A stretch of DNA of 64,000 bases from Candidatus Poseidoniaceae archaeon. Its GTDB lineage: Archaea; Thermoplasmatota; Poseidoniia; Poseidoniales; Poseidoniaceae. How positions within the stretch are numbered: position 1 is the stretch's first letter; each line of letters starts with the position of its first letter. Under the pieces are notes generated by a model, which was not told the DNA's origin, did no database searches, and saw only the letters and a list, made by a program, of their open reading frames with translations. The position numbers and the translations under genes were made by a program. The stretch is taken from positions 1-64,000 of the forward strand of contig JASLKG010000009.1 in NCBI GenBank assembly GCA_030747695.1, written 5' to 3'. Below, in pieces: positions 30,083-59,078 of this stretch.

Positions 30083-30090
30083 GGGCATTG

Positions 30091-35718: not shown

Positions 35719-35723
35719 TTTAT

Positions 35724-37508: not shown

Positions 37509-37822
37509 CCGAACACCACCGCAATAAGACTCGAAGGAATAACCCCTGCCAATGCAACCAAGCAAGCTTCAATCATAAGGCGCAACTCAATTCTTTTTGC
37601 CTCTTTAATAATAATTGGAGTTGGAGCTTCCAGGAATTCTTGTGGTACTTCAACTAGGCTTTGGTAATGCATTCCAATAGAATGTAATCTTTCAGAATCA
37701 TTTTCTAGTAATGAGAATTTTAGCATCATTGGCCGGTACCTTGCTGTAAACCATCCATAGATGAAAATTGCAATATGTAGGACCAATATAAATGATAATA
37801 TCAAAGAGATTTCAGTATTCAT
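37505..37822 (-). CDS. Two-helix membrane protein, 105 aa
   Basis: The N-terminus has a membrane helix (LILSFILVLHIAIFIYGWF), then a charged middle, and a second hydrophobic helix near the C-terminus (CLVALAGVIPSSLIAVVFG). Function unknown. Its start overlaps the previous gene by 4 bp and its stop overlaps the next, so it is locked into the operon. Confidence 0.65.
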   Translation of the reverse strand: MNTEISLILSFILVLHIAIFIYGWFTARYRPMMLKFSLLENDSERLHSIGMHYQSLVEVPQEFLEAPTPIIIKEAKRIELRLMIEACLVALAGVIPSSLIAVVFG

Positions 37823-38547: not shown

Positions 38548-38830
38548 GCGTGCAACCCCCTATGAATATTGCACCTTCTATGAGATTCATCCAACGTTCA
38601 ATCAGCGTATCCGGAATGGATTCAACACCGATTTCATCAACCTTTTCAATTATTTCTAAACCAAATTGAATCGGGCTAAGAATGGCAACTTCAATCCTGT
38701 TTGCCAGGGTTCGTGAAGGAATTATATGAGATTCCGACGAACATTCTCGGAGAAAACTCACGACTTCAAAGTGCAAATCCCTCGCTTCAACAAGAGCCTC
38801 TTTCTTTGAATTAAAATCAAAAGATAACAC
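38537..38830 (-). CDS. Small helical protein, 97 aa (GTG start)
   Basis: The start is the GTG at 38830, which overlaps the end of the previous gene by 14 bp and has GAGGTGA six bases upstream. The protein is helical (KKEALVEARDLHFEVVSFLREC, NRIEVAILSPIQFGLEIIEKV). Unknown function. Confidence 0.6.
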   Translation of the reverse strand: MLSFDFNSKKEALVEARDLHFEVVSFLRECSSESHIIPSRTLANRIEVAILSPIQFGLEIIEKVDEIGVESIPDTLIERWMNLIEGAIFIGGCTHGI

Positions 38831-39350
38831 CGGCCTTCACCTCAGAAATTTGTTGATTTAAATTTGCAGAATAACCCTCCACATCACTAGAAGCACTCTC
38901 TATTTCAGAGATTGCTTGAAACAATTCACGTAGATGAGAAACGGTTGTTATTGAATCTGCATTGTCGGACTCACGTACCTTTTGTACAGCTTCATTTACA
39001 TGGGTTAAATCAGAATTAATTTTTACAGTAGATGACATCAAATTGTCTAGTAAAGATTCACAGGCTTGCGTCCCTTTACCGAAATTTTCTTCAATGTCTT
39101 TTAGATAATCTGGATTTTCTTTCAAAGCTTGTTCAACAGTCTTACGATAAGCTTCCATTCGGCGCCCTAAGCTCTCTTCTCTGGCGGATTTTCTCTTTAA
39201 TTTTCTAAGAAATTCGATAGAATCGTTTAGTTGAGTACTTTGATCAGTTTCAACAATTCTATTGGCAGATCGATCCAAGTTTAGTGTGCCCCAGATTAAG
39301 ATTAGAGCTAAAAACAATAGTACAGCATTAATTATTTGCATTTCATTCAC
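38817..39350 (-). CDS. Single-pass membrane protein with coiled coil, 177 aa
   Basis: A hydrophobic helix at 4-22 (MQIINAVLLFLALILIWGTL) is followed by about 150 residues of heptad-like helix (SIEFLRKLKRKSAREE, VNEAVQKVRESDN). Probably anchored in the membrane with the coil in the cytoplasm. It starts inside the 734-aa gene's end (ATGA overlap) with GGAGAAGGTGA as ribosome site. It resembles the 186-aa protein encoded on the other side of the 734-aa gene. Confidence 0.65.
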   Translation of the reverse strand: MNEMQIINAVLLFLALILIWGTLNLDRSANRIVETDQSTQLNDSIEFLRKLKRKSAREESLGRRMEAYRKTVEQALKENPDYLKDIEENFGKGTQACESLLDNLMSSTVKINSDLTHVNEAVQKVRESDNADSITTVSHLRELFQAISEIESASSDVEGYSANLNQQISEVKAGVIF

Positions 39351-41547: not shown

Positions 41548-42104
41548 TCAACTCCACATGCTTTCTTTATCATTTCTAGATCCTTTTGCATTTCATAAAC
41601 AAAAGAACATTGAGTCTTCAATTTTTGATTTATCGTACGGATTTTATCAATAAGCGTAGGAAGCATATTGTTAATTTCAGAGAATCCGGCTTGAGATTTA
41701 TTTACATTTAGATTAGAGATGGAATTTGAAATGCTCGTCAAATTACGTTCCAGGTCAATCATCGAATCAGATTGATCATCTAGTGTATCCGAAATAACGC
41801 CTTCAAGATTTTTAAATTGAGGAGACATTGTTAGACTAAGCAATTCATGTTCGACAAGCTCCTCTTCCAAATTATCTTGAACACTTTTGAATTCATATCG
41901 TAATTCATCAATAAGACCATTCATGACAACCAAATCATCTTGAAGAGATTGGCGTCCAGATTTTTCTTCACTTTCGAAATTAGATATTTGAGATTTTAAT
42001 GTACTGATTAAACGTAATACATAGAATATGATTGCAACACTAAAGGCACTTATAGCAATAATCGACTCTTCAGATAAGTTGTTAATTAATTCTGTAATAT
42101 TCAT
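41544..42104 (-). CDS. Single-pass membrane protein with coiled coil, 186 aa
   Basis: The ATG at 42104 is chosen because it lies just before a membrane helix (SIIAISAFSVAIIFYVLRLI). The longer open frame would overlap the divergent CBS gene. The rest is a long coiled coil (LKSQISNFESEEKSGRQSL, SMIDLERNLTSISNSISNLN) and a Cys near the C-terminus. It is the first gene of the downstream leftward operon. It is similar in layout to the 177-aa protein, but the sequence is different. Confidence 0.65.
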   Translation of the reverse strand: MNITELINNLSEESIIAISAFSVAIIFYVLRLISTLKSQISNFESEEKSGRQSLQDDLVVMNGLIDELRYEFKSVQDNLEEELVEHELLSLTMSPQFKNLEGVISDTLDDQSDSMIDLERNLTSISNSISNLNVNKSQAGFSEINNMLPTLIDKIRTINQKLKTQCSFVYEMQKDLEMIKKACGVE

Positions 42105-42217
42105 CACAACACTATCTTCATCATAATTTTGGATCGAAAACCCAATTAGTACAGTTTCAAATCCAATTTTTCCAATCAGAAAGGTATCGTTATAATCAGG
42201 GCTGTTTTGGAGAATGT
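42105..42217. promoter_or_regulatory. Divergent promoter region with island-shared motif
   Basis: This 113-bp gap separates the leftward operon from the rightward CBS-HEPN-like gene. A TATA-like ttataat lies about 25 bp before the rightward start, and GGAG lies 8 bases before it. On the + strand, GGATCGAAAACCC at 42131-42143 matches GGATTCAAAACCC at 52650-52662 in 11 of 13 positions. The reverse complement of gaagatagtg also lies here (42110-42119), and gaagatagtg occurs at 52709-52718. The shared elements suggest common control. Confidence 0.45.
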
Positions 42218-43891
42218 ATGAGGGTTTGCGATATTGCCAGCAATGGTTTAGTATTCGCAATAGAGCCCAAAGCATTAGGCCTTGAAAACAAGGACCCGTT
42301 GGCAATCGAAGCATTGGGCAACATTCTGAAAGCACAACAATTCGATGCAATTCCATTAGTTTCATCTTATGGTGGCGATGTAACTATGATAGCACGCCGA
42401 AGATTACACGACGGAGATCTATATGAAACATTTATTTTGAATAGAAATGAAGTTCAAGTAATACCAAGAAGAACTTCAATAATCGAATCAATATTTTTGG
42501 TTTTGTCAAATGAGCACCACATCGTGTTCCTGGAAGATGATGATGAGAAAATCACAGATATACTTACACTTTCGATGTTAAATGCGCCCAAAGTAAAATC
42601 ATATTTGAATCTCAAAGTGTCTGAATTAACAGAGAAGGGATGGGAATGGAATAATCAATATCTTGGCACTAATATGAAAGGGTTTGATTCAGAACTCAAT
42701 CCTAAAGTCAATTATGCCAATTTGATTTATTCTAAATTAACAGATTTAGCATTATTAGTTCGAGACGATGCAGAAACACCAACAGATTATGCCGTATCAA
42801 AATTAATAGTTGAAATTTTGTCATTGATACAACCATTGAAGCCCTATGAAGGCGAGGAAGAATTAATCACTAAGGATGATTTCTATCTTCCAAAAGACCA
42901 TATTATTCATCAAGAAAGTAATGCCAAAACAATTCAAACATGGCCTGTGGGTACAATATTTCCTAATAAGGAAGAAGCAGTTCACGAATTACCATTTGAA
43001 ATGTTTAGCACAGCTAACAATTGGGATCGTTTATTATTATGCCCAGAACCGGGATCAACGGAATTTACAGTCATTGAAAGAAAAGAAGGTGAGGTAATTA
43101 AGTCAATAGCACATACAGTAAAAGAAACCGCAACTCACAATGAAATTGCAACATTATTGGCTGAAGATAATAATCGATTAATTGTTGTGAATAATGAAGG
43201 AAGTAAGTGGCCCGGAGTAATTACAATTCATGATTTTGCATTAAATCAAAAAATAGAAGCAGACTTAGTTAAACGATTAGCAATAATTGAAACGAGATGT
43301 AGAATAAAATTGTTATGCAAAGGAGATTATTTTTCGACAATCAAAAAACATCGACAAGGGAGAAACCAAGAATTAATCCAAAGCTGTTCATTTGCTGACA
43401 TAATTTCAATGCTAAAAAGTGGCGGATATTTGGAAGAAGGCCACTATGACAAATTAGAAACAATTCGAAAATTCCGAAATCGCTTGGTGCACGATATTGT
43501 TGGATATCCATTGAATGAATTACCGATTTATCATTTTGGTAATTTTCTTGAAGCGTATCAATATTCGATTGAGTTGGAAAAAATATTCAATTTTGACACC
43601 AAGGAGTTTGAAGCAAACTCCAAATTATTAGTTGCAATGGGAGGACTGTCAGCCTTTGCCTTGCAAAAAAACCACAAAGGGCCAAGAAAAGTATTCAAAT
43701 CCAAATTGCTCGAAGAGCTCAATAAAATATCAATAAATGAGCGAGTATTAACAATTATTTTGAGAGAAGGAGTAAAAGAAGTAAACATCATGCTTGACAC
43801 TTCTATTGGAGGCACTTCGACTTGTTGGAGAGACCGTTTATTTAGGAATTTTCAAGAGATAGATGAAATAATTGTCAAATCAGATGACTAA
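42218..43891 (+). CDS. CBS-like plus HEPN-like protein, 557 aa
   Basis: The N-terminus (CDIASNGLVFAIEPKAL, then ALGNILKAQQFDAIPLV) and a later stretch (ATHNEIATLLAEDNNRLIVVNN, then GVITIHDFAL) look like CBS domains, which bind adenine nucleotides. The last third is helical with ETIRKFRNRLVHDIVGYPLNE near 418-438. The R-N-x3-H pattern in it is that of HEPN RNases (R-x4-6-H). If active, this would be a nucleotide-sensing RNase. It faces the leftward operons, is divergent from the 186-aa gene and overlaps the kinase-like gene's 3' end by 17 bp. Both assignments are by motif, not by alignment. Confidence 0.55.
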   Translation: MRVCDIASNGLVFAIEPKALGLENKDPLAIEALGNILKAQQFDAIPLVSSYGGDVTMIARRRLHDGDLYETFILNRNEVQVIPRRTSIIESIFLVLSNEHHIVFLEDDDEKITDILTLSMLNAPKVKSYLNLKVSELTEKGWEWNNQYLGTNMKGFDSELNPKVNYANLIYSKLTDLALLVRDDAETPTDYAVSKLIVEILSLIQPLKPYEGEEELITKDDFYLPKDHIIHQESNAKTIQTWPVGTIFPNKEEAVHELPFEMFSTANNWDRLLLCPEPGSTEFTVIERKEGEVIKSIAHTVKETATHNEIATLLAEDNNRLIVVNNEGSKWPGVITIHDFALNQKIEADLVKRLAIIETRCRIKLLCKGDYFSTIKKHRQGRNQELIQSCSFADIISMLKSGGYLEEGHYDKLETIRKFRNRLVHDIVGYPLNELPIYHFGNFLEAYQYSIELEKIFNFDTKEFEANSKLLVAMGGLSAFALQKNHKGPRKVFKSKLLEELNKISINERVLTIILREGVKEVNIMLDTSIGGTSTCWRDRLFRNFQEIDEIIVKSDD

Positions 43892-44525
43892 GTTCTACTT
43901 TCATAGGTTTACAATCCATATTTCCCAGCATTACTTGAGCTATTCTTAATGCTGCAACTTCAGGTTTTCTTTCACGAATTAGAAACGTTTTACATCCTAA
44001 TTTTTTCCGAGCATGAGTTAATACAGAACGGTAATATGGATCAGAATTCAATTTAATATCGCGTTCAGAAAGCTCCTCTCCACTTTCTTTAGCTCTCTCA
44101 ATTACACGCGCAACTCTAATTTCATCAGGATCAAGAATTATTTGAAAGGTAATGTTTGGTTTGGTAACCCCTTCTGGCCAGTTATCATCTTGATAAGGTG
44201 GATCTAGGGCTGGATTACATAGAGTGGTTGCTTCATAATACCTTTCAGCAGCATGAGATGCCCAGGTTCTATCCATAACAATGAAATCTCCATTGATATC
44301 ATTAATTAATTCAGATTCACTCCTATACGTTTCATCAAGAAGCTTACATTTTTCAATAAAATTTTCATTACCTTTGAGGGCATAACATTCTGCCCGTTCC
44401 TCTTTCAAATCTTTTTGAACCCAGTAACGCTCTCCTCCAAAAATTTTCAATAATTCAAGTGAGGTTTCGGTTTTTCCTGTGCCATCATGAGCTTCAAGCC
44501 CGATGATAATTTTTTGCGCATCCAT
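43875..44525 (-). CDS. Thymidylate-kinase-like P-loop kinase
   Basis: A 216-aa protein with Walker A GLEAHDGTGKTET at about 9-21 and a DRTWASHAAERYY motif (about 84-97) that matches the DR(Y/W) element of dTMP kinases. A later VIERAKESGEELSERD is a lid-like region. The expected reaction is phosphorylation of a deoxynucleoside monophosphate. A second dNMP kinase inside an island might serve nucleotide supply for the element or modify a nucleotide. Its start overlaps the 944-aa gene's stop by one base (TAATG), with GGTGGA as ribosome site. Confidence 0.7.
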   Translation of the reverse strand: MDAQKIIIGLEAHDGTGKTETSLELLKIFGGERYWVQKDLKEERAECYALKGNENFIEKCKLLDETYRSESELINDINGDFIVMDRTWASHAAERYYEATTLCNPALDPPYQDDNWPEGVTKPNITFQIILDPDEIRVARVIERAKESGEELSERDIKLNSDPYYRSVLTHARKKLGCKTFLIRERKPEVAALRIAQVMLGNMDCKPMKVELSHLI

Positions 44526-47359
44526 TAGATTCCACCGGCTTTACTAAGGTTAGATCCATCGTGCACCAAGCGATTTCGAATTTTTGCAAGTTTAGACCTA
44601 TTCATCTTTAGTGAGTTAATAGCCTCCTCAGTGTCAAAATCCCATTCAAGTGTATAACCCATATCAATTGCATCTTGTAGACTATTTACAGCAACCTCGA
44701 AAGAATTGTCTATCTCCCTGTGCATCATATCAATAAATGTTACTAATTCAGAATTTAGTTCTGTAATTTCTCCACCGCTAAGCGAATCAATAATAAGTCC
44801 GGATAAAAATTCCAGTCTTTCATGGGGATATTTCCACAATGAACTAAAGGGAATCTGTTTCCTATTTCCTTCAAACGGGCCCCGTCCGCCTATGCCAAAA
44901 CTTTTCATAATCACCAAACCAGTAATGGCCTTTTGTGGAGTTATATTATCGTCCATTTCGGCGAGCTCTCTCAAATACTTCTCACATATATTTGTTAGAT
45001 TTTCATCAAAACCTTCTGGGACTATATTTTCACTACAAGATTGATATACAGAATTAATCAGATCATATATTTCATTATCAACGCTACTATTATTCTTCAC
45101 CGCCGGTTTTTGCAACTCGTAAGAAAAATAATCAATAATTTTTAGCTTATCTGAAGCAGAGATGTATGACTCAGATAGATGAATTAACATCGAAGCGGCA
45201 TGAGTAATCAAATATTGAGAATGAATTACATTTGCTATGGAATATCTTCTCTTAAATTCTCCAAGTAGATCAAATTTCTCAGCTACAATATTTCCAGTTC
45301 TTCGGTATGTAAATTTTTTGCCAGGAGAAAAATCAATCCAATTACAATTTGAAGAATCTATCTGTTGATTTAATATTGTAACTTTTATCATTTGGGACAG
45401 CTCTCTGAGGCCTTGACAGGAAGCCAATCCTGCTTGGATGGCCCAATCATCACCCTCATTTTCCTCAATTTCAACGAAATGCTCCCGCAAATTATCGATA
45501 GCATTATCAAAATCAATTATTTGATTATCATTTACATTAAATCGCTCTTTAGAGATATACAGATGTGCATCATCACAGTTTGTGCACCTTCTTCTATATC
45601 TGCAAATACGTAATTGTAGATAATCTTGCATAGAATCTAAAATTAGAGAACCAGTAACATGACTTACTTCTGAATCAATCAAACACTGAATTATTTTAGT
45701 AAAGCGTTCAACAGGATGATCGTCATATGTCATTATCGGGCTTCTCTGTGGATGGCCATCTTCATTATTGGAATCGATTTGACCAGCAACAAGGGCTTGC
45801 AATCCACTTTGCCAACGAATGGGGTCTTTATCTCTGAATATGTGTAAGGAATTAAAGAATAACTCAATTCTCTCAGGGTCTGTAGGTTGTAATTTTGAAG
45901 CTAAAATATAATCAACGGTTGCTTTTAAAAATGAATCAATAGCATCCGCGCTATGTTTACGAAGAGCCTTAACTCTTTCATCTCCTCTTAGAATTATATT
46001 ATCTCTGTTAAATGCTATCTGTTGCCGGATTACTTCTGATCCGGCAGCCGTGGTTTGCTGGAGCAAATTGTCTAAACCAATATCCTCTAGCATGTCCGTA
46101 AGTTCCTTTACCGCCCGTTTTTCGTCTGGAATGCCCGTTTCATTATCCGATGATTTAATTGCAATATCAACCATCTTGAAGAAGAGTTCTTCAAAAGTCT
46201 CAGAACCATGTTGTTCTACTACAAAATCAGAGAACGATTTCAACGATTCACCTCCAGCGAACATACCAAGCCAATGTTTAACATTCTCGAAATCATTAAT
46301 ATACCCTTTAAGATAATTGTATATTATTAAATCAGTAACAAATAATGGCGATGGCGGAACTAAATTTATTCGTTGCCTTACATCAGATGGTAAGCCCTCA
46401 AAGGGTATTGGCAAACCCTGTAAAGTACCCTGTAAGTAAAGAGAAGCGAGCCCTTCCCACTTAGGCATAAACTCTTCGAAGTTCGATTCCCTTGCGAAAG
46501 AAAGCCTACACCAATTGTGAAGAATATCGAAATTCACTTTTAGTGCCATTCTGATAACCAACCAGTGCTGTTCAGTAACATCATTCCACTTAGAAATTTC
46601 ATCGTCGGTGAGGTCATCAATCTTATCCTTATCCGGAACCATCTGAGTAAACGGCAGAAACAGTCTAGCTGCTATTTCGGCAAGTCTATTGTAATTCATA
46701 TAAACCCCATCATCAAATTTGTATTCAGGCTCCATTTCTTTACTTAGGACATTTGTTAACGATCCTTTAATAATATGCGAATCATTAATCTGGCATTCTA
46801 TAGCAAATAAGAATTCAAAGATACCGGTTTCTGAAAAAATAGAGAAATCCTCCTTAAGGAGTCCGTTCTCACTGAAGGAGGTACCCTTCAGATAATCTAT
46901 AATTCCCTCACCATCATGATCGGGATCAATATGAGCATGTAGTAAGGCATCAACCAATGAGTGATGGGGCGTAATTTTGTAATCGAGTAAAGCCTTATTA
47001 CGCGAAATAAACAAATGCTCAACAATATTATCTATAATTTCTTGATCCTTCTGCTCATTATATAAATTTTGAAACTCTTTAAAATCATCACCTTCCGAAT
47101 CTACAATTTCGTTTTTGCTTAAATCAGCCCAGCGTTGAGTTTGAGTACAATAAGAATGGACGCCCTCAAGTCCAATTTCTTCTAAAGACTCTTCGATTAT
47201 TGCAAATCCCTGGTTACTTGAAGGCACCCATTCTGTAAGATCAAAAGCCCTTTTTACAGTCTCGATAAGGGTGTAAGTAGGAAGAGGCACTCGGCCTTTT
47301 ATCGCTTCATGCAAATTACAAATTTGACCCTTAGTTAGTTTCATCTTCCCCATCGTCAT
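44525..47359 (-). CDS. Large helical island protein with C-terminal HEPN-like motif, 944 aa
   Basis: Almost wholly helical and not recognised. A CxRYRRRCTNC cluster near 587-597 may bind zinc. The last residues are LAKIRNRLVHDGSNLSKAGGI, with the R-x4-H core of HEPN RNases almost at the very C-terminus; in a full HEPN domain this is normal in the last helix. The start ATG at 47359 overlaps the upstream ATPase stop (ATGA). Large helical proteins next to STAND ATPases are often effector or sensor parts of conflict systems. That is inference. Confidence 0.6.
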   Translation of the reverse strand: MTMGKMKLTKGQICNLHEAIKGRVPLPTYTLIETVKRAFDLTEWVPSSNQGFAIIEESLEEIGLEGVHSYCTQTQRWADLSKNEIVDSEGDDFKEFQNLYNEQKDQEIIDNIVEHLFISRNKALLDYKITPHHSLVDALLHAHIDPDHDGEGIIDYLKGTSFSENGLLKEDFSIFSETGIFEFLFAIECQINDSHIIKGSLTNVLSKEMEPEYKFDDGVYMNYNRLAEIAARLFLPFTQMVPDKDKIDDLTDDEISKWNDVTEQHWLVIRMALKVNFDILHNWCRLSFARESNFEEFMPKWEGLASLYLQGTLQGLPIPFEGLPSDVRQRINLVPPSPLFVTDLIIYNYLKGYINDFENVKHWLGMFAGGESLKSFSDFVVEQHGSETFEELFFKMVDIAIKSSDNETGIPDEKRAVKELTDMLEDIGLDNLLQQTTAAGSEVIRQQIAFNRDNIILRGDERVKALRKHSADAIDSFLKATVDYILASKLQPTDPERIELFFNSLHIFRDKDPIRWQSGLQALVAGQIDSNNEDGHPQRSPIMTYDDHPVERFTKIIQCLIDSEVSHVTGSLILDSMQDYLQLRICRYRRRCTNCDDAHLYISKERFNVNDNQIIDFDNAIDNLREHFVEIEENEGDDWAIQAGLASCQGLRELSQMIKVTILNQQIDSSNCNWIDFSPGKKFTYRRTGNIVAEKFDLLGEFKRRYSIANVIHSQYLITHAASMLIHLSESYISASDKLKIIDYFSYELQKPAVKNNSSVDNEIYDLINSVYQSCSENIVPEGFDENLTNICEKYLRELAEMDDNITPQKAITGLVIMKSFGIGGRGPFEGNRKQIPFSSLWKYPHERLEFLSGLIIDSLSGGEITELNSELVTFIDMMHREIDNSFEVAVNSLQDAIDMGYTLEWDFDTEEAINSLKMNRSKLAKIRNRLVHDGSNLSKAGGI

Positions 47360-49425
47360 CCCCCCCTTAATATATCATCTAAAGACTCCAAATCAGTCAT
47401 TTTGTAATCGTTTACCAACGCCTCTAAATCGAAGTTCGAATCATGTTTGAATTGCTCTCTGCATTCTCGTAGGAAATAAATTGCTTTTCTGGGATTAAAA
47501 TTACCTCCATATGCCCTCAAATTCTCATCATTAAATAGCATTTCAGTAGCATGCTTCGCCCACTTCTGAAACGCATCCCACATTTTGTGATTAGTATTTG
47601 GTATACCTTCATCATTCCATAATGCCTTAAATCCGTTTTTTTGGGCAAGTTTAGGCACAAAAGTCAGCAGTTCCTCCTCTTCTAAATCGTGTAATTTGTC
47701 AAAGCACTCAGCACGATTCCTGATATTTTCTTGATTCAGACTACCGATTATTCCGCCCCATTCTTTTATTCTCACAGTCAAAATCAATAGCGCAACACTA
47801 TCTGCAATTTCGCGAGATTTTTTTAACACATCTCCCATCGAAATTTTATTACCGGAACCATCCTTGTCATATTTGTGCAAATCATCAATAATCATAATTT
47901 GCTTATTTAACTCCTTCTTATCCGCCTTTTTACAATAATTATGTATTTGATTTAACTCACCCATATATACCTCGTAACCAGGAGGGGGGCTATCTCTGTC
48001 CCTTGGGAAGAGACAGCTACCAACAATGGCAGATTTCCCCCAACCAGGGTGGGCTTGAATTATGACAATGTTATAATTAGGTTCGTGAGCTAGGGCCTCT
48101 TCAATATGATCTTTGATTTGGACCTCATGATTCAATTCCACAGGGCGAGTGATTGAATGCTCTTTGTTACCCAATTTTCTAATTTCTTCTACAAACTCCC
48201 TCCAATTATGAATTTCTGGAGGTGCTCTTCCTTCTAAGGAATCCCGGGTTGAGGTTTCGGTTTTTCCTGTTCCAACCCAAGTCGCTTCAACTCCCGGTTC
48301 ATCAAATTCAGCCTTTCGAATAATAGTCCAAACGCAACCAGAAAAAACACTGTCCGAAATTACCTCAATTCCTCTATTTTTTAATTGCTCTTTCCAATTA
48401 GATTTAGAAAAAAAGGCAGGGGGTTTAGAATTAATATCAAAAGCACCGTCTTTGTTGCTCGGGTAAGTTAAAATCAATGAGCCGCCTTTTTTTAAACACT
48501 GAACCCGTTCCATGATATATTTTATTACTGCATCATCATCTTTTTTATCAGGCCACGAATTAACAGTGTATGTGTCTATAATAATATCAGTTGTCTCCCA
48601 GTTATCTTGGTGGTTTGGTGTTTTAACATCGTCACCGTATTCTTCACTCACTTTCTTGAACCAATCAGTATTATGTGTTGAATCATCATCCGAATCAGCC
48701 CGAACTTCGATTTCTTTAATTTTATTTTCAGACTCTTTTGTATTAGATTTAATTTGGCGCATACTTGAAACATAATTTGCAGCATCATCTAACCCAACAT
48801 AAGTGACATGTAATTCTCCAGGGTCTTTTTTCATCAAACTGTCCTTAACCTTATCAATCCCCTGAATTGTAGCTTTTTGTTTTGGGTGAAATAATTGAAC
48901 TTCGGCCTCAGCATTATCAACTCGTTTTGAAATCCAGTTGAATCGCTGGTCTCTTAGAACTTCTTGGGCCTGATTTGGATTCAACACCTCTTCTTCATCA
49001 ATTTTGTTCCAAGGATTTCCGTCAACACGCCACTCCCAGCCCCATTTTCGGAAATTATGCATAATAGCCGCGAATTGAAATGAAGTGCCAATCTTTGCTT
49101 GTTCTATGCTACCGTCATATCTGAAATTAATTTCTAATCCTTTAAACTTTTGAGTAGTACTTCGGAGCCTCCAATTAGTTTTCTGATTTTTTTCATTGAA
49201 CAACCCCTCTGCTTCCAATCCCACACTAGTGCAGAAATCTCCACATGGAGTAAATAACACCCCATCAAGACTAGAACTGTCCTCGCTATTAAACATCTTT
49301 AAATTGAAGTCGGTTTCTTCTCCAGTTAGATCAAGCGTGATTATGCAAAATGAAGTAGCAGCAGATGCCAATTCGTAACGATCTACCCGTATGTTAGCTA
49401 TAGGGGCAGGTTTAGAAACATCCAT
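47356..49425 (-). CDS. Methyltransferase-like plus P-loop ATPase (STAND-like), 689 aa
   Basis: Three parts can be seen. Residues 1-220 are unassigned. About 275-370 looks like the end of a Rossmann methyltransferase (TDIIIDTYTVNSWPDK, then VQCLKKGGSLILTYPSN). About 430-620 is an ATPase: Walker A QAHPGWGKSAIV, Walker B QIMIIDDLHKYD and LLILTVRIKEWGG as a sensor with arginine, as in STAND/AAA proteins. The last 60 residues are helical. A ribosome site AGGAG lies 8 bases upstream. With the 944-aa protein, to which it is translationally coupled, it could form a sensor-effector pair. The methyltransferase call is weak, since no GxGxG loop is seen. Confidence 0.6.
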   Translation of the reverse strand: MDVSKPAPIANIRVDRYELASAATSFCIITLDLTGEETDFNLKMFNSEDSSSLDGVLFTPCGDFCTSVGLEAEGLFNEKNQKTNWRLRSTTQKFKGLEINFRYDGSIEQAKIGTSFQFAAIMHNFRKWGWEWRVDGNPWNKIDEEEVLNPNQAQEVLRDQRFNWISKRVDNAEAEVQLFHPKQKATIQGIDKVKDSLMKKDPGELHVTYVGLDDAANYVSSMRQIKSNTKESENKIKEIEVRADSDDDSTHNTDWFKKVSEEYGDDVKTPNHQDNWETTDIIIDTYTVNSWPDKKDDDAVIKYIMERVQCLKKGGSLILTYPSNKDGAFDINSKPPAFFSKSNWKEQLKNRGIEVISDSVFSGCVWTIIRKAEFDEPGVEATWVGTGKTETSTRDSLEGRAPPEIHNWREFVEEIRKLGNKEHSITRPVELNHEVQIKDHIEEALAHEPNYNIVIIQAHPGWGKSAIVGSCLFPRDRDSPPPGYEVYMGELNQIHNYCKKADKKELNKQIMIIDDLHKYDKDGSGNKISMGDVLKKSREIADSVALLILTVRIKEWGGIIGSLNQENIRNRAECFDKLHDLEEEELLTFVPKLAQKNGFKALWNDEGIPNTNHKMWDAFQKWAKHATEMLFNDENLRAYGGNFNPRKAIYFLRECREQFKHDSNFDLEALVNDYKMTDLESLDDILRGG

Positions 49426-50344: not shown

Positions 50345-51889
50345 TTAAACCCAATCTTCGTCATCAACAATACTAACTTTATCAATTCCTAATGAGCGCA
50401 AAGTCTCATGTGTATTATCAATAGCAATCTGAAGTTTGTTTTTCATTACACGAAGCCCATCTCTTAACTTATCAGCATCTCGAATAATATTGTTTGTCCA
50501 CCCATCCATTTTTGAAATTCTTTTAATTTCATTTTGAATTCTATCAGCAACATCCGCAACCTTCGCTCTATCTCCTTCGTTCTGGACACTTTCCTTTTCA
50601 GCTAACAATTGTGTTGAAATAAGCGCAGCATTTAATTTTTCGAGAGCCGCATCTTGATCAATATTCCATTGGAACAAGACAATATTTCCAAAGCGTTGCA
50701 ATTTAGGGAATGTCTTTCTTGCGCGAGACGAATTCATTATGAAAAGACCCGCTTGAGAACCGCGATTCTCCATCGCCTTCTCCATTTCTTCTATTGCTTT
50801 ATGAGTATCATATGAGGCATGACTTTTTGCTTCAACAACAATAGAATTACCAGACAATTGATGTCCCGCTTCAAACCTAAGAATGAAATCCCCAGTCTTG
50901 CAGTTTGTAAGGTTTCCAACAGTATTGCCTGTGTGAGTATTTTCAAGACGCGATTCTATCGCAATTTCATCTAAAAATACGCCCACCTGATCTTCAAATT
51001 TGAGACCTTGTAATGTAGATGAATCCATTACAGAGTTTGTTGCATCTTCTTCAGCCTCCTTTTGAATAATGAATTCTTTCATCTCATTGATACTAGATTC
51101 AAGTGATGAAATAGAATCCTTTAGCTCAGCGCGTATTCTACTCATTGCAGAATTTTCTACACTCAAACTTGTTTCATTTAGTAATTGTTTAAGGGGAGAT
51201 TTTGGATTTGATGAGTCCAATAAGTTTTGAATGTTGTTGACTTGTTCTTCTCGACTCTGATTCTCGGCATTATTCGCATCCTGGACCGCTTCAAAGAATT
51301 TTGAAAGCGCCGACTTTTTGTTGGTAAGGTCCAATTGATCTTGTAAAGCAATGTCAACTTTACTCTGAATATCATTTGCTAAACCATTGGTGTGTTTCGG
51401 ATCTAAAGCAATGGCTAAGTTTGACTCTGGACCAATTAATTCAGATAGAGTTTCACCAAGTTTACTACTTTGTCCAACGATGTGATCAGTCAACATTTGC
51501 TGTAAAGTCCCATTTTCACCTAGAACTTCTGAGAGGTTTGCATTCATTAGGCCATTGTCTTCGTCGAAGAATCTGTCTAATGTAGCATTTAGATCATTTT
51601 CGATGGTTTCACTAATTGCTTGAGTTACTTCAGTGCCCTTTTGTTCGAGCATGAGAAGTTGCCCCTTCTGGGATGCATGAATTACAGCATCTACTCCAAT
51701 TGACCAGATCAATTCGGCTTGTTTGTTAATTCTTGGAACATGTAATTTGTTAAAATGTTCAAAGACAGTCGTTCTCGCATCATAAATATTGATGTTAACC
51801 TGACTATCCTCGGGTAATATCGTAGTTTCAGCAACTAGGTCTTCGTTCTCAATCTGGCTCTTTTGGTTTTTATTCTTTGCAATTGTCAT
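50345..51889 (-). CDS. RmuC-like PD-(D/E)XK nuclease with long coiled coil, 514 aa
   Basis: Residues 1-300 are long helices with heptad-like repeats (LNATLDRFFDEDNGLM, QSKVDIALQDQLDL). Then comes a nuclease-type core: D334 in TGDFILRF, followed by E353 and K355 in SIVVEAKSH, which is the D-x18-E-x-K pattern of the PD-(D/E)XK superfamily. QAGLFIMNSS and ARKTFPKLQRFGNIVLFQW complete the fold. Coiled coil before a nuclease is the RmuC arrangement. RmuC-type proteins limit DNA rearrangement and several have been linked to phage defence. The ATG at 51889, after GGAG, is chosen over a TTG nine bases upstream. It is the strongest sign of a DNA-cutting role in the island. Confidence 0.75.
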   Translation of the reverse strand: MTIAKNKNQKSQIENEDLVAETTILPEDSQVNINIYDARTTVFEHFNKLHVPRINKQAELIWSIGVDAVIHASQKGQLLMLEQKGTEVTQAISETIENDLNATLDRFFDEDNGLMNANLSEVLGENGTLQQMLTDHIVGQSSKLGETLSELIGPESNLAIALDPKHTNGLANDIQSKVDIALQDQLDLTNKKSALSKFFEAVQDANNAENQSREEQVNNIQNLLDSSNPKSPLKQLLNETSLSVENSAMSRIRAELKDSISSLESSINEMKEFIIQKEAEEDATNSVMDSSTLQGLKFEDQVGVFLDEIAIESRLENTHTGNTVGNLTNCKTGDFILRFEAGHQLSGNSIVVEAKSHASYDTHKAIEEMEKAMENRGSQAGLFIMNSSRARKTFPKLQRFGNIVLFQWNIDQDAALEKLNAALISTQLLAEKESVQNEGDRAKVADVADRIQNEIKRISKMDGWTNNIIRDADKLRDGLRVMKNKLQIAIDNTHETLRSLGIDKVSIVDDEDWV

Positions 51890-51903
51890 TATAATCAATC
51901 TCC

Positions 51904-52795: not shown

Positions 52796-55700
52796 ATGGA
52801 TAATAATACAGACACAAATGAATTTGGCCGTAAAATTGGAATACAGATTTCGGAAGAAATGTCAAGATCGACAAACGTTCTTCCAACTAGAGAATATCAA
52901 TTCAACAAAATGTTAGATGAAATGAATGTTCAAATCGATAGAAAACCAATGCAAACTAAAGTGCATCTCGAACTTACTCGCATGGTAGAGGAATTAATGC
53001 CTCAAGGCAAGCAAATATTGCAAGACGCAACCAACCAATCAAGAATAAAATTTGACATAAGTCGCAGTTGGAGAGAGTTACTGAAGTGGGATAAATCAAT
53101 CCCGTGTCCAGAACAGGGATGCAATCAAATCGTTTTGAAATCAACAGCATCAAATACAGTAGAGCTTTGGGATTTTGTATATGATTTAATAAAAAATCTG
53201 TTTAATGAAAACAAGATTTTAATCGATAAGGAAAAGTGGTTTACTGAGGATGAAAAAACCCAATCTTTGATGAGTTTAGACGGCTTATCTAAAATCATTA
53301 ATTATCATGACAGATCAATACATTGGCCTGCAATTCGCAGTACAATAAAGTATATTCTATTCGAAGAGTGCACAGAAGTAAAAGTGGGAGACATACTTGT
53401 AGATATTAGTGATTTTGAAACTAAGGAATCAGAGTTTTCAGAACTTGAATTAAAGGTAATCCAGGCTAAAAATAAAAAGATTGCAGGACTCTGTCATTTG
53501 CTAAATATTTGCGACTCAGACCCCCTTCAATGTCCTAGTTGCGGCCACAATTTGTTTTGGAATGAAAGACAAGTAAAAAGCGACAAGGAGTTTGATTTTG
53601 AAACAACTTCTAGATTAGCAATAGAAACTAGTATTCGCTGTATAGTTGGTAGTGCAGTAAACCGCCCACCCAAAAAATTAATTGGAAGAATTGATGGTAA
53701 GAAAATAGAAATATTGCGTGGTAAAATAGCTTCAAAATCAAGCGATAGACTTCAAAGAGCAATTTCTGAATCTGTACTTGTATGTAACTCAGTAGTGGGA
53801 GAATTTGAAGTTCCTTATGGGGACAAATCAATTACTTTCAACCCCGAAGACAACCAATCGCAAAGAGTTTATTCAGCAATTAATACTAGAGTAGTCGAAG
53901 AACTGTCACGCGAATTAAAGAAATTGAAACCACTTGCATTTTTCTTGCTGGAAGATGAAGGCGTTATTGATTGGGATAATTGGGGCGGAAACACTGCAAT
54001 TTCAATACTACAAGCATTCAGTTTGGCTGGTTTCGTTATTAGAGATGACAAGACATATAATTTCCTTTATCATAATGGGGAAGCTCCAAAGAGAGATACA
54101 GTTATGTTGAATTTGACAAACGAAATCAATAAAGAAGTACGTGATAGATTCACCGAAAAATCGAGCGATGGAGGAACATACAACGCTCTCGAATTTCTGT
54201 TAAACCGCGATACAACATATCCGATGTTTAGTTTGCCTGTTGATAGATCTCTAAATTACCCAGGGGGATTTATGACCCCCCATATGCAATCCCGCTATCC
54301 TCTAGTTTCAAATAATTCAATCGAAGATTTGTTAAATATTGTTAGATTTGAACCATCTCTTGAAGCGATTAATGCAATAAACAATCTTCAGAAAACAGAA
54401 TGGAAGATAGACAATAAAGTGAAAGATATCACCTTCAGTACACTGAAGAATTTCGTTCAAGAAACATTAGTAGAGAAGTTTGCAATCCGTGAAGTAAATC
54501 CCAAAAAGAAAGTAACAGCACAGGCGCTTTACAAGAGAAGAAATCGTAAAAGTACAAAAGAATTAAACCCAAATTCTAAACCACAAGAGATCAAAGAAAT
54601 TCTTAATGTAGAATGGAATAATTTAGACGCCCTAGATAAGAAAGAATGGGAAAACAAAGCAATCAGCCATAATACGCGAACATTATTGTGTCTAGATATG
54701 AAATGCATATTTCCAACACTTACTCTTGGCCAAGTTACAACTTGGAACGCCTCTCTTAGTTTTATTGAGAAATTAAATTTAGAATTCGAAAAACAAAGCA
54801 ACCAAACCTTTTGGCATGCATGGAGCTTTGATTGGAGAGGAAGAATGGTTACTTCATCCACGCTTCTTTCACCTCAAAGCGATGATTTTTCTAGAGGCAT
54901 GCTAAGGTTTGCTGAATCTCACGCATTAACATCCATTGGGTGGGAATGGTTACAGATACACACAGCTAAATTGATGCGAGGCCGTGCATTGCCAGAAAAT
55001 TTGTTTTCAGCAGAGCAACTTGAAAGTTGGAAACAAATCCAAAAAACCCTCCAAGAGAAAACGCATCAAGCGAACTTAAAAGTTTCAAAAGATCCACTAT
55101 TCATTGAAATATTAGAGATTATTAGCAATTCCCCAATGAAATATTATTCAATTTGGGGTAAAGGCGACGTATTTTTGGCCAAGTCGGAAGGATTTCAGAG
55201 AATTTCAGCAATAATTACTTTCGTAGAGGCACATCAAGGCGGAGGCGAAGGAACAAATGTTTGTTTACCAATAAGCCAAGACGCCTCATCTAGTATTTAT
55301 CAACAAACATCACTTCTTGTAAGAGATAAGCAAATGGCAGAATTAGTTAATGTCGTTCAAGTAGGAAATCATCCGCAAGATGTCTATTTGGAAGTAATAA
55401 ACAATCTTGAGAAAGCATGGGGGAAGAACCCATCTTTCCCAGGCGAATTATCACCAGACCAAATAACTAATTTGATGAAGGTTGTATTGGATAGAGGCGT
55501 TGCAAAGAAACCGGTGATGACAATCGGATATGGAGCAACAGAATCTAATATGGTCAAATCTTTGTTAACACATAATGGTAAGGAATCCGGATTACACGGA
55601 GGTATAATTCCTGTTTGGAAGAGCGATTACAAAATAGTCGATGAGATCTCTCAAGCTTCAAAAGACGAATGGAGTTGGCGAATGACAGCACATCCTTCTA

Positions 55701-56863
55701 GTACACTTTATCCTGCTTTAGTTGACATTAATCCGGAACTGCATGATGTAATCGCTAGAAAAATAATCAAAGATATGAAAATGAGTGTTGAGCAAGTATT
55801 ACCGGGATATGGAGTTCTACGTACAAATCTTGAAGAAATAGCAAAACAAATGCCAATAGGAGCAGATGCGCCAGATCCTGTGGAATGGCAATTACCCGAT
55901 GGGACTTTAGTTAGAAATATCAAAATGCAAAAAGAACAACCTGCTACGCGTTCATATCGCAAAGGAATTGAATCCTCCTCAACTAGAGCGCGAAGAATTG
56001 CTGTAGAGGCAATGGAAGAAATGAGATTACCCAATACTTCTTCTATTCCATTAAGCACGTCTATGCCAATCGATTTTTCAAATATTCCAAATGAATTAAA
56101 AGAATCCGAACCCGAACTCTTTGAAGTGCTAATGATAGCCGAAAAGAAGAGGTTTGAAACAATACTATCTGAACTATCAAATCTCGAAATGTCTGGATAT
56201 AAGCTTTACAAACACTATACAAAAAATAGCATAAAGAAAAGCAATAAAGAAGCTTCTAGCAAAGAAATAAATGATAAAATCCTTGAACAATGGAAAGAAC
56301 TAGATGAACAAATAAAAGAAGAATGGAAAGAACAAATTGAAATGATAAAAACAGATAATGGCATTTCACTTTCCAACCTATCAGTAAATTGGAAGACATT
56401 TAGATCGGTAGTCGGTATTGTTGCTGAAGATAAACCCCTATTAGAACACGAGATAAACGCGTTGCCAGACAAAATCAAGCGAGCAGTTAGAAGATTCTTT
56501 GGAACAGTTGCAGGGGGCCTCTCCCGTCGCCAATTAACATCAGCGAGAAAGCTGAGAGGAGAAATCTCTGGCCTATCTCCTAATTTTGTCCATTCTCATG
56601 ATGCTTGCCATATGAGGTTGGTAGTAAATGATTTATTTAAATCCGGCATCCATGATATTTGGTCAGTTCACGATGCCTTTGGATGCCATCCAAATTATAT
56701 TGGGAAAATGATAGAGTTAGTAAAAACAAATCTATTAATTGTGCATAAGGAAGTTGATGGTGCAAGAGGAACACTCGACAAGTTGATGAAGAAGCATCTT
56801 GGAACTAGTGTTGAAGGCGAACTCAAACTCTCAGAAGTCGGCTCGGATTATTTTATTCAGTGA
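52796..56863 (+). CDS. T7/mitochondrial-type single-subunit DNA-directed RNA polymerase
   Basis: A 1355-aa protein (ATG at 52796; an upstream ATG 13 codons earlier is less likely). Hallmarks of T7-like RNA polymerases, counted from this start: DWRGRM at D679 (T7 DWRGR, 421-425); D829 in LPISQDASSS (T7 catalytic D537); R900, K904, Y912 and G913 in RGVAKKPVMTIGYG, the same spacing as T7 R627, K631, Y639 and G640; NFVHSHDACH with H1266 (T7 H784); and H1292-D1293 in VHDAFG (T7 H811-D812). Catalytic and substrate-choice residues are all kept. It is longer than T7 RNAP (883 aa) owing to a long N-terminal part with two Cys clusters (CPEQGC near 103, CPSCGH near 245) and two HMG-box-like inserts (about 571-625 and 1134-1183). 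It should transcribe from dedicated promoters. No such enzyme is known to me from archaea; a viral or plasmid origin is likely. Confidence 0.93.
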   Translation: MDNNTDTNEFGRKIGIQISEEMSRSTNVLPTREYQFNKMLDEMNVQIDRKPMQTKVHLELTRMVEELMPQGKQILQDATNQSRIKFDISRSWRELLKWDKSIPCPEQGCNQIVLKSTASNTVELWDFVYDLIKNLFNENKILIDKEKWFTEDEKTQSLMSLDGLSKIINYHDRSIHWPAIRSTIKYILFEECTEVKVGDILVDISDFETKESEFSELELKVIQAKNKKIAGLCHLLNICDSDPLQCPSCGHNLFWNERQVKSDKEFDFETTSRLAIETSIRCIVGSAVNRPPKKLIGRIDGKKIEILRGKIASKSSDRLQRAISESVLVCNSVVGEFEVPYGDKSITFNPEDNQSQRVYSAINTRVVEELSRELKKLKPLAFFLLEDEGVIDWDNWGGNTAISILQAFSLAGFVIRDDKTYNFLYHNGEAPKRDTVMLNLTNEINKEVRDRFTEKSSDGGTYNALEFLLNRDTTYPMFSLPVDRSLNYPGGFMTPHMQSRYPLVSNNSIEDLLNIVRFEPSLEAINAINNLQKTEWKIDNKVKDITFSTLKNFVQETLVEKFAIREVNPKKKVTAQALYKRRNRKSTKELNPNSKPQEIKEILNVEWNNLDALDKKEWENKAISHNTRTLLCLDMKCIFPTLTLGQVTTWNASLSFIEKLNLEFEKQSNQTFWHAWSFDWRGRMVTSSTLLSPQSDDFSRGMLRFAESHALTSIGWEWLQIHTAKLMRGRALPENLFSAEQLESWKQIQKTLQEKTHQANLKVSKDPLFIEILEIISNSPMKYYSIWGKGDVFLAKSEGFQRISAIITFVEAHQGGGEGTNVCLPISQDASSSIYQQTSLLVRDKQMAELVNVVQVGNHPQDVYLEVINNLEKAWGKNPSFPGELSPDQITNLMKVVLDRGVAKKPVMTIGYGATESNMVKSLLTHNGKESGLHGGIIPVWKSDYKIVDEISQASKDEWSWRMTAHPSSTLYPALVDINPELHDVIARKIIKDMKMSVEQVLPGYGVLRTNLEEIAKQMPIGADAPDPVEWQLPDGTLVRNIKMQKEQPATRSYRKGIESSSTRARRIAVEAMEEMRLPNTSSIPLSTSMPIDFSNIPNELKESEPELFEVLMIAEKKRFETILSELSNLEMSGYKLYKHYTKNSIKKSNKEASSKEINDKILEQWKELDEQIKEEWKEQIEMIKTDNGISLSNLSVNWKTFRSVVGIVAEDKPLLEHEINALPDKIKRAVRRFFGTVAGGLSRRQLTSARKLRGEISGLSPNFVHSHDACHMRLVVNDLFKSGIHDIWSVHDAFGCHPNYIGKMIELVKTNLLIVHKEVDGARGTLDKLMKKHLGTSVEGELKLSEVGSDYFIQ

Positions 56864-56872: not shown

Positions 56873-58108
56873 ATGGTTAGTGAATTAACAAATAAAGTAT
56901 ACGAAGCGATAATCACTTCTGGGAAATCATCCGAAGAATTAGCAACAGACTTTCTGTTGAAAAACGGGTACCGTACAGATAAGTGGGGCTCGTTAATTTT
57001 AGAACCAAGGAAGGGCTGGGTTGTACTGAAGATACCCTCGCGTAAAGATGGCCCAAACGCAAAAGTAGACTTTGAAAACTTTAGTGATGAATCCGAAGCT
57101 AAAGAACTAGCGAATAAATTATACCCGAATAGTACTCCAGAATGGATCAACTCAATTTGCTATGAAGGAATAGTTCATTTTGATAAATGTACCAAAGCAA
57201 AGAAAAAAACAATTGATTTAGATGATAATGATGAATTAAACCAGCAACAAATCATAGAAGCAAATAAGGCAAGAATAATTGAAAAAATTGACGGGTTCCT
57301 CAATAAACATGAAAATTCTACTAAGTTAGGCTTAATGCGGTATCCTACTTCAGATGACGCCGTTGAAGCATTCTTGGAAGTTGTAAAACAAAATAATATG
57401 ACTATAGCGCACAATCTTAAACAGTTAAGGGCACAAGATCAAGAAGGGAATTGGTATGTCAGAGATTCTAGCCAATGGAAAGATAAGTATGGCAATAAAG
57501 AAATTATGCCTAAAATTCCAGAACCAATTCAAACAGTCAACAGTATTGCATATGACAATTTAGGATTTTTAGTTCACTTTTACGATTATTTTTTCAACCA
57601 AGAACAAGCAACAATAGCTTATGCACTTGCTCTCGGCCATCTAATTATAAACGAATCAAATCCAGTAAGATCAGCCTTAGATGGCGACGACGTAATTGGA
57701 ATTTTTGAATCATCAGATCTTACGAAAACAATAATCTCAATGACTAAACTTGGATTTGATATACAACCAATCATGAGCCCTACTGGAGAATGTATTGGCG
57801 CAATACGTCTTCAAGACGTTTTGAAATTTATATCCGAAGAAGGCGAGAAATTGCTCCCAAAGAATTTTGAGTTGAAGACATTAAAGAAGTTAGGATTACT
57901 ACTTCCAAGTCCTCCAATATTGGATGGAAGAGGCCCCCTATCTGATGCTGAAAGTATCTTGAAATCGGGCTCTGATGGAATATTGGTTAGAGTTAATCCA
58001 GAAACCTGGTGGGACGAGGAGACTAAAGATGTAATTTCTAGCACTTTAAAGCCCGGGTTACACATGATGACTTCGCACGATATAACAGCCTACCACCTAT
58101 CAAAATAA
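56873..58108 (+). CDS. CBS-like protein following the RNA polymerase, 411 aa
   Basis: It starts 9 bp after the polymerase stop with GAGGTGA as ribosome site, so the two are surely one transcript. The N-terminal 80 residues form a small alpha/beta domain (ILEPRKGWVVLKIPSR). The middle is helical. The last 150 residues look like a CBS pair: VIGIFESSDLTKTIISM, then IQPIMSPTGECIGAIRLQDV, and PLSDAESILKSGSDGILVRV with a final LHMMTSHDITAYHLSK. CBS domains bind adenine nucleotides and control partners. A regulatory or initiation-factor role for the polymerase is an inference from position. The other rightward island gene also has CBS-like parts. Confidence 0.6.
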   Translation: MVSELTNKVYEAIITSGKSSEELATDFLLKNGYRTDKWGSLILEPRKGWVVLKIPSRKDGPNAKVDFENFSDESEAKELANKLYPNSTPEWINSICYEGIVHFDKCTKAKKKTIDLDDNDELNQQQIIEANKARIIEKIDGFLNKHENSTKLGLMRYPTSDDAVEAFLEVVKQNNMTIAHNLKQLRAQDQEGNWYVRDSSQWKDKYGNKEIMPKIPEPIQTVNSIAYDNLGFLVHFYDYFFNQEQATIAYALALGHLIINESNPVRSALDGDDVIGIFESSDLTKTIISMTKLGFDIQPIMSPTGECIGAIRLQDVLKFISEEGEKLLPKNFELKTLKKLGLLLPSPPILDGRGPLSDAESILKSGSDGILVRVNPETWWDEETKDVISSTLKPGLHMMTSHDITAYHLSK

Positions 58109-58545: not shown

Positions 58546-58968
58546 TTAGTATTGTTCTAGGACAAGTTCTGTAGTGGTGCTAGCAATATCTGTAGGGGCA
58601 GCGAGCCACATACGATCAAGAAGAGCACGAAGCGCCATGGTATCATCAACGTGAACAAGAGCAACTAGGTCAGCTTCACCGGAAACTTCGTAGATAACTT
58701 CAACTCCATCCCATCCAGTAACTTCTCCTGCAAACGTGCCAATTTCAGCTCCAGGGCTAACTTTGATTCTAACTAGAGCAGTAAGGCCAATTCCCCCTTC
58801 GCGAATAGTGTATCCTCGAATTGTTCCATTTTCTTCCATGCTACGTACATGTGTACGTATTGTTCTTTCACTAGCGCCCACTAATTTTGCTAATTCAACA
58901 AACGACATACGCCCATTTTTCCTTAACTCTGAAAGAATAGCTCGGTCAATCTCTGCAATTCGGGCCAT
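58546..58968 (-). CDS. Lrp/AsnC-family transcription regulator
   Basis: A 140-aa regulator from the ATG at 58968 (the open frame extends upstream but this is the usual start). A winged helix-turn-helix lies at 1-55 (EIDRAILSELRKNGRMSFVELAKLVGASERTIRTHV) and a RAM (ligand-binding, ferredoxin-like) domain follows at 65-140. Lrp proteins form octamers and often repress their own gene; the ligand is usually an amino acid. It sits directly before the DoxX gene. Confidence 0.85.
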   Translation of the reverse strand: MARIAEIDRAILSELRKNGRMSFVELAKLVGASERTIRTHVRSMEENGTIRGYTIREGGIGLTALVRIKVSPGAEIGTFAGEVTGWDGVEVIYEVSGEADLVALVHVDDTMALRALLDRMWLAAPTDIASTTTELVLEQY

Positions 58969-59003
58969 GAACAGTCCTGCCCCTTTCTGTATATGAAAGT
59001 GAC

Positions 59004-59078
59004 CTATTTTGTAATAGAATGACATATTTGCACTAGATTGGATAGTCAACCGGAACAAATTCTTCCGAATTCCGGAAG
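59004..59078. promoter_or_regulatory. Candidate operator region upstream of the Lrp-type gene
   Basis: CTATT-TTGT-AATAG at 59004-59017 and CTTCCG-AATTC-CGGAAG at 59062-59078 are inverted repeats between the Lrp-type gene and the 148-aa gene. The first has the size of a typical archaeal Lrp site and overlaps the probable promoter of the regulator; the second has a 6-bp perfect arm. No TATA box can be told with confidence. Confidence 0.35.

Follow-up and report, generated by a model that had tools for sequence, protein, structure and literature searches.

Why would the chromosome of a marine archaeon carry a gene for a T7-type RNA polymerase, and what might such an enzyme transcribe? Textbook and review accounts give archaea multi-subunit RNA polymerase (RNAP) only and place single-subunit RNA polymerases (ssRNAPs) in phages and organelles, those of organelles being phage-derived (e.g. 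PMC9169541, PMC8979003). We analysed a 64,000-nucleotide stretch of a Candidatus Poseidoniaceae genome (GenBank assembly GCA_030747695.1, contig JASLKG010000009.1, positions 1 to 64,000; hereafter the window), in which an earlier reading made without database searches (the sequence-only reading) had recognised an ssRNAP gene within an island with dense unknown genes:

52796-56863, plus strand: single-subunit (T7/mitochondrial-type) RNA polymerase, 1355 aa (PF00940, PHROG_414, aligned T7 catalytic residues, AlphaFold2 and Foldseek)

Every test run places the protein in the PF00940 family, and a chance match to the ssRNAP family is excluded. We give roughly even chances to the reading that it is a dedicated, ligand-gated transcription enzyme of an accessory, probably defence-related, chromosomal gene cluster, belonging to a clade so far found only in Poseidoniales (marine group II).

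Catalytic residues and predicted fold

The reading frame is open from an ATG at 52796 to a stop codon ending at 56863, with an alternative in-frame TTG start at 52757. The PF00940 profile matches the protein at 107.5 bits (E 9.4e-31; cut-off 22) and the PHROG_414 'RNA polymerase' profile at E 1.3e-69; searched against the PDB, the single sequence finds T7 RNAP chains at E ~7e-14 and a four-member profile finds them at 4e-37. N4-like phage RNAPs give a weak profile match (PHROG_2166 E 2e-12; 6dt7 E ~1e-4) and are far less similar than those of T7 type. When 85 ssRNAPs were aligned (T7, K1-5, other phages, human POLRMT, yeast Rpo41, bacterial and viral contigs, and archaeal relatives), window residues D829, R900, K904, Y912, G913, H1266 and H1292/D1293 fell on T7 D537, R627, K631, Y639, G640, H784 and H811/D812. 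As in T7 RNAP (Autographiviridae; PF00940), the palm/fingers core has R425, D537, Y571, R627, K631, Y639, G640, H784, H811 and D812 (T7 numbering), and a functional-looking capacity for DNA-directed RNA synthesis is predicted from these intact active-site residues.

An AlphaFold2 (AF2) model of window residues 300-1355, made with ten relatives in the input, has palm and fingers blocks with predicted local distance difference test (pLDDT) values of ~80-96; the overall value is 60 because the N-terminal and inserted regions are unsure. The top Foldseek matches in the PDB were T7 RNAP (1h38, E 1.5e-17), yeast Rpo41 (8att, 1.3e-16) and human POLRMT (9r95, 1.3e-15), and all 50 matches listed are T7 or mitochondrial RNAPs, so that the protein has the same catalytic fold as POLRMT and Rpo41. 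The family match and palm/fingers fold expected by the sequence-only reading are therefore present, and every catalytic correspondence that it named is right. Unlike T7 RNAP, the window protein has 1355 rather than 883 aa, a longer N-terminal region, high-mobility-group (HMG) boxes and a specificity-loop region of 237 vs 59 residues, and it is ~24-28% identical at best to phage enzymes. No TFB2M/Mtf1-type factor and no PPR domain was detected in the scans made. A host Rpb1-type RNAP is encoded elsewhere in the same genome, and the ssRNAP is therefore an additional enzyme.

The sequence-only reading knew of no described archaeal case, and we likewise found no earlier description of an archaeal ssRNAP in the open-access literature; subscription journals and preprints were outside the search, so novelty is provisional. 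On that provisional footing, what is new is the archaeal host, the HMG inserts and the partner of an enzyme from a known family (PF00940).

A chromosomal insertion at a variable site

The gene lies near the right end of an insertion:

33352-58545, strand not assigned: whole accessory island, 25.2 kb (empty site in congener G183; GC drop)

Four congeners have ~1-2.6 kb between a tetratricopeptide repeat gene on the left (30088-32334 in the window) and an Lrp-like gene on the right (58546-59058), vs 26 kb in the window. In G183 (L228) a VOC gene, which in the window ends at 33351, and the Lrp-like gene end ~17 bp apart. Because the flanks are nearly joined in congeners, the 25.2 kb at 33352-58545 of the window are an insertion, and the site is variable, other congeners having different, smaller inserts there. 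The island has a GC content of ~0.34-0.40 vs 0.40-0.47 outside, and the insertion point has protein genes on both sides and is not at a tRNA gene. The island described from the sequence is thus borne out, with an empty site in relatives.

These observations bear on the possibility that the contig is a chimera in which an archaeon has been joined to a phage or an organelle, a concern that the sequence-only reading had itself raised. The low GC of the island would be compatible with such a join. However, the two island junctions fall at a site of conserved synteny, empty in G183, the polymerase and its companion gene (described below) occur as a pair in four genomes, three of which also have the 734-aa gene of the island, relatives are present in single-cell genomes, and no phage or mitochondrial sequence is close to the polymerase. 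The source genome (1.79 Mb in 11 contigs, 87% complete; this contig 176 kb) has a contamination estimate of 0.01%. Flank synteny, the empty site, the shared genes and the single-cell relatives all speak against a chimera; contamination is close to refuted, and we conclude that the polymerase contig is not chimeric or misbinned.

The same hotspot in congener G560 (L227:4297-8459) contains a double cytosine-C5 methyltransferase with a nuclease-like gene next to it, a cargo that from its sequence appears restriction-modification (R-M)-like.

Relatives and phylogeny

A tblastn search of 293 Poseidoniales genomes gave 18 carriers of the polymerase, counting the window's own genome, spread over 9 of 22 genera; the genome sample is uneven, and the gene is absent from all 35 of the most complete genomes. 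The search for homologues in Thermoplasmatota thus gave 17 further carriers, all Poseidoniales, and PF00940 was found outside the Poseidoniales carriers in none of a 390-genome phylum sample and none of 14 control genomes. Single-cell genomes account for two of the carriers, AG-422-I18 (L027) and AG-457-A01 (L033), in which the gene shares contigs with conserved Poseidoniales genes. All 19 relatives match PF00940. The catalytic D/R/K/Y/G/H/D residues are kept in the relatives that cover these sites, the exception being H784Q in L031 (6458-10951), which has Gln at the T7 H784 position and keeps the other catalytic residues; the partial row L026 is misaligned at catalytic sites. Genome G182 encodes two distinct ssRNAPs, each on its own contig (L029, L030). 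A single-protein search for related loci in genome contigs and viral contigs found no relative, the alignment of 19 rows contained no conserved stretch suitable as a query, and phage, plasmid and IMG/VR collections gave distant enzymes only (~22-32% identity).

In a core tree of 537 columns with 17 Poseidoniales rows, 16 of the 17 form one clade (ultrafast bootstrap 97, SH-aLRT 87). The remaining row, L041, lies outside the clade and is very long-branched; the approximately unbiased (AU) test does not reject a single origin that includes it (p-AU 0.45). The same test rejects trees in which the clade is constrained to group with cultured-phage references (p-AU 0.007) and, marginally, those in which it groups with mitochondrial enzymes (p-AU 0.04), so the clade is not sister to the mitochondrial enzymes. 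Its nearest neighbours are two IMG/VR phage-like contigs, L109 and L124 (support 95 in the first tree, 97/86 in the second). The single clade, these phage-like neighbours and the AU results lead us to infer a single ancient acquisition from a phage-type pool, followed by diversification and by loss or transfer within the order, with the direction and the root deduced rather than read from the tree. An ssRNAP in an archaeal chromosome is accordingly borne out by sequence, structure, synteny, 17 further Poseidoniales genomes and a phylogeny in which, as the check suggested by the sequence-only reading could reveal, the Poseidoniales polymerases form one clade outside the cultured-phage references and apart from the mitochondrial enzymes.

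The same tree brings in the main rival to a dedicated cluster enzyme, namely that an integrated marine group II virus or plasmid, intact or decaying, uses the polymerase to transcribe its own genes, as T7-like phages do. Nearly all other ssRNAPs of prokaryotes are phage-borne, and the position of L109 and L124, the low GC, hotspot insertion and sporadic distribution, and a thymidylate kinase-like gene in the island (PHROG_761 E 0.0013) all fit such an element. Against it, the PHROG (n=10) and Pfam scans of island proteins yielded no recognisable gene for a capsid, portal, terminase or DNA polymerase, and there was no integrase among those scanned with Pfam; the PHROG scan of ten island proteins recognised no phage structural gene. 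The window gene thus differs from a T7-like phage system in being chromosomal, with no phage genes recognised around it among the proteins scanned. The insertion between protein genes rather than at a tRNA gene, the distance of the phage RNAPs found in IMG/VR and the position of relatives next to conserved chromosomal genes, in several contexts, also speak against a mobile element. The L109 and L124 RNAPs, unlike the window protein, are ~800 aa long (standard phage size), lie in phage replication gene neighbourhoods and have no inserts. We regard the mobile-element explanation as unlikely, although it is the strongest competitor.

Several other ssRNAPs are worth recording. L159 (8774-11290), on a contig assigned to Planctomycetota (Phycisphaerales OFTM92), is a supported sister of the yeast and human mitochondrial RNAPs in the tree, where they group with it at 100/98; it could be contamination or a relevant lead for the origin of mitochondrial RNAP. 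L157, L166 and L168 (Campylobacterota) and L181 (Thiosymbion) are ssRNAPs of ~1080-1100 aa from bacteria-assigned contigs, longer than the usual phage enzymes.

HMG boxes and the specificity loop

Beyond the sequence-only reading, the analysis found two HMG boxes inside the polymerase and an adjoining linked gene (56873-58108), in addition to the relatives in other Poseidoniales. The inserts are as follows:

54500-54661, plus strand: HMG box 1 in the polymerase, aa 569-622, at T7 residues ~352-381 (PF00505, alignment position)
56189-56353, plus strand: HMG box 2 in the polymerase, aa 1132-1186, inserted at T7 residues ~744-748 (PF09011 E 1.3e-6, PF00505)
55883-56590, plus strand: expanded specificity-loop region, aa ~1030-1265 (237 residues vs 59 in T7)

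PF00505 matches the window protein in two stretches (E 1.1e-11). In a profile search of the whole genome the two stretches scored 34.9 bits (box 1) and 27.4 bits (box 2) against a cut-off of 25.4, and they are the only HMG boxes found. Box 2 is placed by the alignment within the T7 specificity loop (T7 residues ~739-770), the promoter-reading hairpin. Between the positions of T7 residues 725 and 784 the window protein has 237 residues; T7 has 59 there, and the medians are 159 for the Poseidoniales clade, most members of which have an enlarged loop, and 57 for other ssRNAPs. Relative L023 has an HMG match at the loop position only, and relative L032 has a C-terminal SAP domain instead of HMG boxes.

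In mitochondria two HMG boxes are on a separate protein, TFAM/Abf2 (PMC7939475), beside POLRMT/Rpo41, whereas in the window they are built into the polymerase. Human RNA polymerase I has a built-in HMG-like docking domain (PMC9438803); its likeness to the window protein is an analogy only, as it is a multi-subunit, unrelated enzyme.

A linked companion gene in type-A loci

The gene immediately downstream of the polymerase is linked to it across genomes:

56873-58108, plus strand: linked companion gene, 411 aa, C-terminal half predicted to be a CBS pair (Bateman) (linkage; AF2 and Foldseek)

Its relatives occur only in the four genomes with a window-type polymerase, here called type A (G000, G213, G076 and G168), and always adjoin it. 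CBS-pair folds bind adenosine nucleotides, S-adenosylmethionine or cyclic dinucleotides. The AF2 model of the companion has pLDDT mostly 66-87 from residues 281 to 410 and matches CBS-domain proteins in Foldseek (4uuu, 6yja and others; E 1e-4, probability 1.00), among them DarB with c-di-AMP and cGAMP; the match to the Pfam CBS profile has E 0.23. From this model the companion is predicted to be a CBS-pair, nucleotide-sensor-like protein. Profile comparison found no kinship between it and the E2-like family of the loci described next, and that candidate relationship was rejected.

The 734-aa gene is also present in three of the four genomes with the polymerase-companion pair. The window, G168 (contig C60) and G076 islands have in common several of the following: the 734-aa protein, small coiled-coil/membrane proteins, a protein with CBS domains that in the window's case is HepT/HEPN-like, and a zinc metallopeptidase, the last belonging to different families in the three islands. 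The Mrr-like nuclease, STAND-like NTPase and MoxR/VWA genes are additions in the window island.

The ubiquitin-like neighbourhood of type-B loci

In the remaining genomes (type B) the polymerase adjoins a ubiquitin-like conjugation locus. This encodes an E1 of ThiF type; a protease of JAMM type, whose HxHx10D motif is read from the sequence and whose Pfam Prok-JAB match reaches only E 0.03-0.1; small, putatively ubiquitin-like proteins with LVPGLVGG at the C-terminus; and a putatively E2-like Zn-ribbon family with an invariant Cys. For this 440-aa family the E2-like identity, unconfirmed by Pfam, is suggested by the invariant Cys and the motif shape. In two type-B loci a further gene product has a zinc ribbon resembling that of TFIIB (PF08271, below cut-off at E 1.7e-4 and 6.8e-4). 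A module gene lies within 10 kb of the polymerase in 12 of 16 type-B loci, the contigs of the other four being 3.4-10 kb long. The module as an obligate partner of the polymerase was considered and dropped, since its E1 is found in 131 of the 293 genomes and its E2-like C-terminal domain in 153, far more commonly than the polymerase. The polymerase is therefore an occasional neighbour of a common locus and not a fixed part of it.

The ubiquitin-like locus is Poseidoniales-wide (e.g. L034:7180-9041, L035:4418-8871, L249:8871-10102), and nothing naming both 'ubiquitin-like' and 'Poseidoniales' was found in the open-access literature. The LVPGLVGG proteins are present in some genomes; in L034 they are in tandem and fused to E1, and in L028 the fusion is to an AAA ATPase. 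A contig titled Gammaproteobacteria bacterium MED855 (L144) has a Poseidoniales-type polymerase together with ubiquitin-like module genes and is probably a misbinned archaeal contig.

A possible role for the enzyme

The intact active site, purifying selection (dN/dS 0.38 for the RNAP of the closest pair, both type-B relatives), the inserts, the sensor-like partner and the hotspot position together are the grounds for reading the polymerase as a dedicated, regulated enzyme. In the mechanism we propose, an accessory gene cluster would move in and out of chromosomal hotspots, bringing a polymerase with a T7-type active site that reads its own kind of promoter through DNA-binding inserts at or around the old specificity loop; the window polymerase would use its HMG boxes for this, and one relative its C-terminal SAP domain. 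The adjoining CBS-pair partner might help or gate the polymerase by sensing an adenine nucleotide or a related signal. Transcription of the cluster by its own polymerase would then bypass the multi-subunit RNAP of the host and serve a conflict (defence) response. The sequence-only reading had suggested that the enzyme may transcribe a selfish or defence element; the hotspot position, the R-M-like cargo in a sister genome and the nuclease-, HEPN- and STAND-like neighbours lend plausibility to a part in defence or conflict.

Several results weigh against this proposal. The loop is of near-standard size in four clade members (L024, L028, L034 and L038), and HMG boxes were detected in 2 of the 19 relatives. 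AF2 predicts helices at both HMG inserts with pLDDT <50 across much of them and gives no confident HMG-box model, and the boxes therefore rest on sequence. The window polymerase lies outside the type-B pair for which dN/dS was calculated. PADLOC, run on ten island proteins, returned weak ATPase matches only and no convincing defence model, and the profile matches behind the nuclease, STAND and HepT assignments are weak, most of them falling short of curated cut-offs. No promoter motif common to the two divergent intergenic regions of the island, the only two compared, rose above shuffled controls. The 734-aa protein is present in three genomes without a detected polymerase, in each case near a contig edge. 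In these (L258:516-2705, L259:1804-4005, L257:3-1928) the 734-aa gene is at or near the contig end facing the polymerase position of L024, and a polymerase beside it may have been lost to assembly.

The domain content of the cluster also allows the polymerase to be seen as a triggered effector, which would make RNA from invading or host DNA, or consume nucleoside triphosphates, and so arrest the infected cell, with a HEPN RNase arm and a CBS trigger. HEPN/HepT-like motifs and CBS domains within the cluster, the CBS partner linked to type-A polymerases and the ubiquitin-like locus near most type-B polymerases are in keeping with this. However, we know of no defence system with an ssRNAP as effector, the HEPN assignments are short motifs with weak profile matches, and the ubiquitin-like module is common without the polymerase. 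We consider an effector role improbable, well behind the mobile-element explanation.

With the window enzyme, promoter recognition by built-in HMG boxes becomes testable within a single polypeptide. The Poseidoniales clade gives the ssRNAP family a cellular setting and is, as a chromosomal archaeal clade, a new comparison point for the adoption of such an enzyme by mitochondria; it may also supply orthogonal polymerases with unusual promoter logic. The broader proposal that the Poseidoniales ssRNAPs are a lineage of their own, ligand-gated, HMG-box-equipped and conflict-dedicated, and thus a third natural home of the family beside phages/mobile elements and organelles, with one polypeptide uniting what mitochondria divide between POLRMT and TFAM, is made tentatively, and we hold it with less assurance than the proposal for the window enzyme.

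Other genes of the island

The remaining annotated genes of the island are:

33358-34602, minus strand: DUF2201 metallopeptidase/VWA protein (PF13203 E 2.4e-33, PF09967 E 1.3e-20)
34612-35727, minus strand: MoxR-like AAA ATPase, partner of the VWA protein (PF07728 E 2e-4)
37505-37822, minus strand: small hydrophobic protein, probably membrane as read from its sequence, common to other type-A islands (open reading frame (ORF) family F28)
37819-38547, minus strand: 242-aa protein, also in the G168 type-A island (ORF family F55)
38817-39350, minus strand: 177-aa coiled-coil protein with an N-terminal hydrophobic stretch, common to type-A islands (F38, L024 match)
39343-41547, minus strand: 734-aa type-A-linked protein (homologues in G168, G076, G253, G078 and G068)
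41544-42365, minus strand: 273-aa coiled-coil protein, also in G168, annotated start probably too far upstream (ORF family F57)
42218-43891, plus strand: CBS-domain protein with HepT/HEPN-like C-terminal motif RNRLVHD (profile matches below cut-offs)
44525-47359, minus strand: 944-aa protein with C-terminal HEPN-like motif RNRLVHD (sequence; repeat I2)
47356-49425, minus strand: STAND-like NTPase (PF20720 E 8e-4, below cut-off)
50345-51898, minus strand: coiled-coil protein with Mrr-like nuclease domain (PF04471 E 2.2e-4)

The 734-aa protein has no meaningful Pfam, NCBIfam, PHROG or PDB match. The matches of the CBS-domain protein (PF00571 E 7.9e-5, PF01934 E 0.009, NF047751 E 4e-4) are all below curated cut-offs. 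The DUF2201/VWA protein matches phrog_1314 at E 1.7e-86, a family whose label 'HNH endonuclease' looks misannotated.

Two repeats lie within the island. A 28-nt inverted repeat (43468-43495/44558-44585, 93% complementary) encodes RNRLVHD in the C-terminal parts of two facing genes. A 25-nt direct repeat (44460-44484/48250-48274, 96% identical) encodes GTGKTETS in the thymidylate kinase-like and STAND-like genes, which are otherwise unlike each other, and may reflect recent exchange or coincidence.

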